Below are positions 60,926-62,554 of a stretch of 64,000 nucleotides of DNA, one piece after another. The number at the start of each line of letters is the position of its first letter. The first letter of the stretch is position 1. Origin of the DNA: Chthonomonadaceae bacterium (lineage in GTDB: Bacteria; Armatimonadota; Chthonomonadetes; Chthonomonadales; Chthonomonadaceae). The stretch covers positions 1 to 64,000 of the forward strand of contig DAIDKH010000013.1 of the NCBI GenBank assembly GCA_027450145.1, in the 5' to 3' direction. The notes below the pieces were generated by a model. It saw only the letters and a list, made by a program, of their open reading frames with translations. It was not told the DNA's origin and searched no databases. The position numbers and the translations under genes were made by a program.

Positions 60926-62092
60926 ATGGACCATGACACCGGCCCCAGTACCTTGTCCTCACAGGAGGACACTGTTTCGGGCAGCGCTCGTCTAATCGGC
61001 GCACATATGCCAACTGCCGGCGGCCTTAAGAATAGCCTAACATCTGGTAAGGAGATTGGATGCACGGCGGTTCAGCTATTCACTGGCAACCCACGCCAGT
61101 GGAGTCATCCATCGCTTACTGACGACGAGATTCGAGAATTTCGTTCCACACATGAACAGACCGGAATCCCCTTTCTAGTCGCGCACGATTCCTACCTAAT
61201 TAACCTTGCAGCTCCGGCAGCCGATGTGCTGGAGCGATCGCGAAGCGCATTTCGCGGTGAATTAGATCGTGCACACGCACTGGGCATACCATGGGTGGTA
61301 ACGCACATGGGTTCCCACCTCGACCAGGGTGAGGAAGAAGCAGTTCAGCGCCTCATCACCAGCCTTCGGGAGATACTGGAGGAGACCGAGGCGGAAGGCT
61401 GTACCGCGGGCGTTGCGTTGGAGACAACAGCGGGCCAGGGTACGGGATTAGGCTGGTCCTTTAACCAGTTGGGCGATATCTTGAAAGGCGTGGGAGAAAA
61501 TCCTCGCCTTGGTGTATGTATGGACACCTGCCATGTATTCGCAGCGGGATACGACATTCGTACGCCAGAAACGTACCGTGACACAATTCAAAAATTTGAT
61601 GAACTGGTGGGTATTAATCATCTAAGAGTTATTCATACGAACGACTCCAAAAAGGGATTAGGAAGTCGGGTTGACCGCCACGAACACATCGGCATGGGCG
61701 AGATAGGGATGGAAGCATTTTCGCTCCTGCTTAATGACGAACGTTTGATGCATGTGCCTGTCATTGCCGAGACGCCAGATGCCCAGACAATGCATCGGGT
61801 GAACGTGGCGCGGCTCCGAAGGCTGGCTGCCAGCGGGGCATATGGAATCGTGGTTACTGCCCAGCTCTTTGGCCATTACAGTGAGCTGTTCCCAGGCGGA
61901 ACGGTCGATGTTCTGCTACCCAAGGGCGCAGTGATAAATGACCTCGCCGCGGCGCTAACCGACCTTAATCCTGCATTGAGCGACCTTTCCACCCATTGTC
62001 GCTTTGCCATTGCCGATGAGTTGGTAGATGGTTCGGCAGTACTTCGTGAAGGGTGTACTGTAGCGGCTCTTCCACCTAGCAGCGGCGGGTAG
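60926..62092 (+). CDS. nfo: Endonuclease IV with an in-frame C-terminal MoaD-like domain
   Basis: 388 residues from the ATG at 60926. Residues ~20-300 are a full AP endonuclease IV: RLIGAHMPTAGGLKNSL, WVVTHMGSHLDQG, LETTAGQGTGLGWSF, GVCMDTCHVFAAGYD, IHTNDSKKGLGSRVDRHEHIG and VIAETPD, the three-zinc ligands. Without a stop it continues into ~80 residues resembling MoaD (VVTAQLFGHYSELFPGG, LLPKGAVINDLAAAL, TVAALPPSSGG), ending in the GG of molybdopterin-synthase small subunits. moaE follows 24 nt later. An in-frame GTG at about 61848 could also give free MoaD. The fusion may be genuine or result from loss of a stop. Confidence 0.85.
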   Translation: MDHDTGPSTLSSQEDTVSGSARLIGAHMPTAGGLKNSLTSGKEIGCTAVQLFTGNPRQWSHPSLTDDEIREFRSTHEQTGIPFLVAHDSYLINLAAPAADVLERSRSAFRGELDRAHALGIPWVVTHMGSHLDQGEEEAVQRLITSLREILEETEAEGCTAGVALETTAGQGTGLGWSFNQLGDILKGVGENPRLGVCMDTCHVFAAGYDIRTPETYRDTIQKFDELVGINHLRVIHTNDSKKGLGSRVDRHEHIGMGEIGMEAFSLLLNDERLMHVPVIAETPDAQTMHRVNVARLRRLAASGAYGIVVTAQLFGHYSELFPGGTVDVLLPKGAVINDLAAALTDLNPALSDLSTHCRFAIADELVDGSAVLREGCTVAALPPSSGG

Positions 62093-62116
62093 CCGCCACT
62101 TTAAAGGAAACTACTG

Positions 62117-62554
62117 ATGGCGTACGCTCATATAGGCACCGAAGTCATTGACACCGCGGCGCTTGAAGCCCGGGTCGTCACTGTTGAAGATGGCGCAGTT
62201 TGTACGTTTATTGGTAACGTTCGACGACGTTCCCGTGGGCGAGAGGTTGCCTACCTGGAGTACAACGCCTATCTTCCCATCGCAAACAGGATGCTTCAGG
62301 AGATAGCGGACGAGGCGGAGAGCCGCTGGCAGGTAAAGCTCGCTGTTCAACATCGCATCGGCCGTGTAGACCTGGGGGAAGCGGGTGTTGTAGTAGTCGT
62401 GACGTCGGTGCATCGTGCGGAAGCGTTCGATGCCTGTCGCTTCTGCATAGATACGCTCAAAGAGAATGTGCCCATTTGGAAGCGTGAAGTTTGCCCAGAT
62501 GGAGCATTCTGGATTGAGGGCGAAGTGTCGCTTCCCGCATCTAAGGCAGACTAG
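62117..62554 (+). CDS. moaE: Molybdopterin synthase catalytic subunit MoaE
   Basis: 145 residues. Characteristic motifs are GAVCTFIGNVRRRSRGREV, LEYNAYLPIANRML, VQHRIGRVDLGEAGVVVVV, SVHRAEAFDACRFCIDTLK, and PIWKREVCPDGAFWIEG with the catalytic Lys. MoaE and thiocarboxylated MoaD convert precursor Z to molybdopterin. The only MoaD candidate in the window is the domain fused to endonuclease IV just upstream. Other Mo-cofactor genes are not in view. Confidence 0.95.
   Translation: MAYAHIGTEVIDTAALEARVVTVEDGAVCTFIGNVRRRSRGREVAYLEYNAYLPIANRMLQEIADEAESRWQVKLAVQHRIGRVDLGEAGVVVVVTSVHRAEAFDACRFCIDTLKENVPIWKREVCPDGAFWIEGEVSLPASKAD

Follow-up and report, generated by a model that had tools for sequence, protein, structure and literature searches.

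The window, which is the whole 64,000-nucleotide stretch analysed here, carries on its forward strand an nfo-moaD fusion gene followed by moaE. The features of the locus are as follows:

60926..62092, + strand: nfo-moaD fusion gene, 388 amino acids plus stop, based on the open reading frame and family matches
60926..60988, + strand: variable N-terminal extension, predicted to be disordered (residues 1–21)
60989..61825, + strand: endonuclease IV (Nfo) domain (residues 22–300)
61826..61849, + strand: linker (residues 301–308), the end of the last Nfo helix plus about four loop residues
61850..62089, + strand: MoaD-like sulfur-carrier domain (residues 309–388) with a Ser-Gly-Gly end
61850..61852, + strand: GTG, originally put forward as an internal start, probably just Val309
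62103..62109, + strand: AAAGGAA, probable ribosome-binding site of moaE, from sequence (duplex −5.7 kcal/mol, near background)
62117..62554, + strand: moaE, molybdopterin synthase catalytic subunit, 145 amino acids (PF02391)

The original prediction described an AP endonuclease frame that runs without a stop into MoaD, ends in Gly-Gly and is followed by moaE, and both this description and its coordinates were correct. There is no in-frame stop among the 388 codons of 60926–62092. The stop of the fusion lies at 62090–62092, and moaE is a separate gene that starts at 62117 after a gap of 24 nt. The GTG that had been placed at about 61848 exists, with its exact position at 61850 (residue 309). 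The Met1 start of the fusion gene is also kept in two sister species (L004 and L005). Residues 1–19 had a pLDDT below 50 in an AlphaFold2 model, and the N-terminal extension differs between genera.

The N-terminal part of the protein was compared with known endonuclease IV. Residues 23–298 matched nfo (TIGR00587) at 294.9 bits (cut-off 129.65) over profile positions 2–277 of 279, and E. coli Nfo (1qtw) matched the fusion at 223 bits (4.9e-65). Mapping on E. coli Nfo located all nine metal ligands (H87, H127, E166, D200, H203, H237, D250, H252, and E282), which were invariant in an alignment of the 13 fusions described below. The corresponding E. coli ligands are H69, H109, E145, D179, H182, H216, D229, H231, and E261. 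The Nfo part of the model gave a TM score of 0.92 against E. coli Nfo structures, normalised to the E. coli target. A full-length TIM barrel and nine metal ligands are shared with endonuclease IV (Nfo/Apn1, TIGR00587), whereas the known form ends after its last helix and the window's form adds a C-terminal MoaD domain. The host genome contains one Nfo in total.

The C-terminal part is more divergent. Residues 313–388 matched ThiS/MoaD (PF02597) at 26.8 bits (cut-off 22.5), and the best NCBIfam match was moaD (TIGR01682) at 36.5 bits, which is under the equivalog cut-off of 66.15. Fusions of relatives scored 69.6 (L008, above the cut-off), 66.0 (L018), and 61.2 (L012) against the same profile and so lie near or over it. 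The Ser-Gly-Gly before the stop is invariant in the 13 fusions. The AlphaFold2 model, for which the 13 fusion sequences served as input (mean pLDDT 85, pTM 0.82), shows two well-formed domains: an Nfo barrel and, after a short linker, a beta-grasp-like domain from residue 308, whose order of strands and helices fits the ThiS/MoaD type. Around the linker, the model has a helix at residues 288–303 and a strand from 308; both the sequence and the length of the linker differ from genus to genus. With MoaD (TIGR01682/PF02597) the domain shares the beta-grasp, the C-terminal Gly-Gly, an adjoining moaE, and co-loss with Moco genes. The known form is free and has 80 residues, whereas the window's copy has a DNA-repair enzyme attached to its N-terminus. 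The Nfo domain and the MoaD domain of the fusion both look functional.

The moaE product matched PF02391 at 117.6 bits, with further matches to 2wp4, 1fm0 and others. Its LKxxxPxWK motif is intact (LK115ENVPIWK122) and holds both lysines, Lys115 and Lys122; the catalytic lysines of E. coli MoaE are K119 and K126.

Fused, split and MoaD-less loci in the order

We used the MoaD part to search 291 genomes of the phylum and then read the matched loci. The fused frame was found in 13 genomes, which belong to 11 genera and three families of a single order (Chthonomonadales, Armatimonadota), and in 13 of 13 moaE came next on the same strand. Recurrence in this many genomes and genera places the fusion far beyond chance. 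The relatives, in which the original prediction had advised looking for the fusion, therefore bear out its reading of a true fusion, as the fused arrangement is conserved across the order. Outside Chthonomonadales and HR16-type bacteria, no nfo beside moaD was found among the best 80 GTDB Nfo loci, and no plasmid record matched over 80% of the fusion.

In the window's genus, the frame is free of indels in three species (the host, L004, and L005), with synonymous sites in the two sister species near saturation. The MoaD part showed a dS of 1.6–2.5 vs. a dN of 0.04–0.08, and the short junction stretch had 9–13 synonymous vs. 0–5.5 amino-acid-changing differences. Purifying selection acts on either side of the junction within the genus. 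The nfo-moaD join is genuine and ancient, and it has been conserved.

Six genomes of three genera carry nfo, moaD, and moaE as separate neighbours, with the same gene order as in the fusions. In three of these genomes (G043, G041, and G039, from two genera), nfo and moaD share a reading frame with a single TAG between them, so that a change of one base would be enough to fuse or separate the genes. The loss or gain of a stop between in-frame neighbours is a plausible evolutionary route to or from the fusion. G043, which is split, and G044, which is fused, are members of one genus. On the Nfo tree, the fused and split states require at least four changes; fused loci occur in each of the three families, and the outgroup, of HR16 type, is split. 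One ancestral fusion with three later fissions would be the simplest reading of this tree, whose backbone is poorly resolved. The tree of MoaD plus MoaE was compatible with vertical descent inside the order.

Eight further genomes have Nfo but neither the MoaD part nor moaE nor moaC, and one of them (G045) is a single contig of 3,437,861 bases. Where moaD was linked to nfo, moaE was adjacent (19/19), and genomes without moaE had no linked moaD (0/8). This association gave a Fisher value of 1e-5 for genomes that are not phylogenetically independent, and it corresponds to three changes on the tree. Because the MoaD part is absent where moaE and moaC are absent, the C-terminal domain tracks Moco synthesis. 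Nfo is retained alone when Moco is lost.

Other arrangements were observed while reading these loci. In two HR16-type loci (L100:2965-4130 and L101:2965-4130), nfo is overlapped or closely trailed by a moaD in another frame, with no adjoining moaE. At L020:390-835 (G039:C539:489-802), moaE lies in two overlapping frames while nfo and moaD are intact, which reflects a frameshift or an assembly error.

Moco genes and sulfur carriers of the host

A check for another, free MoaD gene had also been proposed, and we ran it on the host genome, which is 96.65% complete; no second MoaD was found there. A ubiquitin-like gene on host contig C32 was rejected as MoaD, as its best match was SAMP1 and it sits between thrC-like and NIL-type genes (both neighbours named by eye from sequence). 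The ubiquitin-like (Ubl) part on the host MoeB was rejected as well, being N-terminal, with its Gly-Gly inside the chain, and not MoaD-like. MoaA, MoaC, and MoeB are all encoded in the host genome. Molybdoenzyme-type proteins are also present (NasC/formate-dehydrogenase-like, DMSO-reductase-like, FdhF/YdeP-like, and MsrP-like), so the cofactor has likely users.

At L002:1498-1785, a SAMP1-like Ubl gene lies between threonine-synthase-like and NIL-type genes, and similar small genes occur across the order. Its product may be a sulfur carrier that serves the synthesis of methionine or homocysteine. PF00384 frames of the formate-dehydrogenase type, each containing a single in-frame TGA, were seen in G041:C549, G040:C248, G039:C43, G044:C482, G043:C178, and G038:C80, which suggests selenocysteine in the host's relatives.

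A probable single fused product and the alternatives

We consider it probable, at roughly 80%, that the gene represents a true fusion, stably passed on, whose product is a single bifunctional protein of ~42 kDa with two domains that we infer to be active when fused. The N-terminal part would act as an endonuclease IV, cleaving DNA at abasic sites. MoeB would adenylate the free Gly-Gly end of the MoaD part, which would then gain sulfur as a thiocarboxylate and hand it to MoaE. With MoaD at the end of the chain, the C-terminus of this domain needs no cleavage to be free, and the fused protein would presumably undergo no processing. The fusion most probably arose in an ancestor of Chthonomonadales by loss of the stop between neighbours in an nfo-moaD-moaE operon, with later re-splitting or loss in some lineages. 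Its benefit would be no more than co-expression, or there may be none.

The frame could also be a two-product gene that yields the fusion plus a free MoaD from an internal start codon, as the original prediction had suggested for the GTG; we regard this as unlikely, and in the window's genus it is unsupported. At the junction codon the window has GTG, but L004 carries GTC and L005 carries GTA, leaving no conserved in-frame start, and L004 has no ATG, GTG, or TTG anywhere in the 25 codons around the junction. The GTG at 61850 is the in-frame candidate closest to the MoaD start in the window; of the internal in-frame start codons, 27% have a Shine-Dalgarno score at least as strong as its −5.6 kcal/mol. 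In the split genomes, moaD begins at an ATG preceded by a ribosome site that scores well (−7.0 to −13.1 kcal/mol). The score by itself does not decide against the GTG, because the nfo start and the moaE start of the window are also weak (−2.1 and −5.7), and the lack of codon conservation carries more weight. Taken together, the GTC and GTA of the sister species and a score at background indicate that an internal start is not conserved in the genus. Two other fusions present a different picture: G031 (L008) has GGAGG-N10-ATG at the MoaD start (duplex −10.3), and G037 (L021) has a G-run and an ATG there (duplex −9.9). Both scores are as strong as those seen for moaD starts in split loci, against a mean of −3.7 for the internal baseline. 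These well-placed ATGs make two products possible in G031 and G037, where they could be relics of old moaD starts or could still be in use.

Post-translational cutting of the linker by a protease, which would free Nfo and MoaD in the manner of MoaX in Mycobacterium, is quite unlikely. MoaX is an established case of a molybdopterin synthase fusion that is cleaved (PMC4326299), and MoaD-MoaE fusions in general need such cleavage to free the Gly-Gly (PMC4326299; PMC11237513), whereas the end of Nfo-MoaD is already free. The linker is conserved between genera in neither sequence nor length, and no protease gene was seen adjoining the fusion.

More doubtful still is a role for the MoaD end in tethering, regulating or conjugating endonuclease IV, via MoaD/MoaE binding or the thiocarboxylate, which would couple Moco synthesis to abasic-site repair. 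Moco does have ties to base-analogue and oxidative damage: PMC1173102 describes a Moco-dependent system that guards E. coli against N-hydroxylated base analogues, and in Deinococcus radiodurans loss of moaE sensitises cells to DNA damage and 6-hydroxyaminopurine (PMC9916421). The persistence of the fusion across 11 genera would also fit a functional link. However, nfo and moaD are split in three genera, other genera drop MoaD and keep Nfo, and the adjoining moaE is accounted for by ordinary Moco synthesis. Moreover, the base-analogue repair enzyme named in this literature is endonuclease V, not IV. These known ties are without endonuclease IV and do not imply coupling by the fusion. Were the coupling true, it would be a case of a ubiquitin-like domain acting on a bacterial DNA-repair enzyme.

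Finally, an assembly error, frameshift or recent stop loss that joined two separate genes, an idea to which the three relatives of two genera with nfo and moaD in one frame and a single stop between them lend some colour and which had been raised as loss of a stop codon, can be dismissed, as the fusion occurs in independent assemblies of 13 genomes, with the frame kept in the genus and purifying selection on both sides of the junction.

Relation to other MoaD fusions

Fusions of MoaD to MoaE and to MoeB have already been described (PMC11237513). MoaX and other MoaD-MoaE fusions (PMC4326299; archaeal cluster 419.1, PMC11237513) resemble the single fused protein favoured here in that MoaD is part of a longer polypeptide of a Moco locus. 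In those proteins, however, MoaD is N-terminal and has to be cut after the Gly-Gly, and the partner is MoaE, whereas in the window MoaD is C-terminal with a free end and is joined to an enzyme from outside Moco synthesis. The window is not of the MoaX type, as MoaD and MoaE are on separate polypeptides. MoaD-MoeB or Ubl-MoeB fusions (PMC11237513; in the order, L171, L172, and L186) likewise join a Ubl sulfur carrier to another protein. The Ubl is N-terminal in these three loci, in contrast to the C-terminal MoaD of the window, and their pathway link is obvious because the MoeB partner activates such carriers. No literature linking endonuclease IV or deoxyribonuclease IV with MoaD was found in a search of mainly openly accessible papers. 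We regard the fusion as a novel and conserved combination of two well-known families.

The fusion provides genomic evidence that, across one order, MoaD can work while permanently attached to the C-terminal end of a 33-kDa enzyme to which it is unrelated. This raises the question of how the MoaD2-MoaE2 molybdopterin synthase and MoeB accommodate the Nfo partner. The fused, split and MoaD-less close relatives form a natural series for judging whether fusing neighbouring genes of an operon brings a benefit or is neutral. For annotation, the fusion carries a warning, as the sole moaD of these genomes is hidden in a gene likely to be named nfo.

Several other frames were considered as further fusions of this type. 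ThiS-matching frames of 490–529 amino acids in relatives were rejected as Nfo-MoaD, and the two that were read have an N-terminal Ubl on MoeB. Frames of 231–245 amino acids in other families were also rejected, and those read are MoaD-MoaE fusions. The 304-amino-acid frame of L030 is not claimed, as it has no Pfam domain ahead of MoaD. MoaD-MoaE fusions of 231–245 residues were seen at L016:1021-1755 and L027:1477-2172 in other Armatimonadota families and represent the opposite way of fusing MoaD. At L171:1631-2500, L172:1529-2500, and L186:319-1158 (G051, G046, and the host, G000, respectively), a MoeB/MoeZ-type adenylyltransferase has an N-terminal SAMP1/CysO-like domain with an internal Gly-Gly. 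In G051 and G046, this gene comes after cysM-like and JAMM-protease-like genes.
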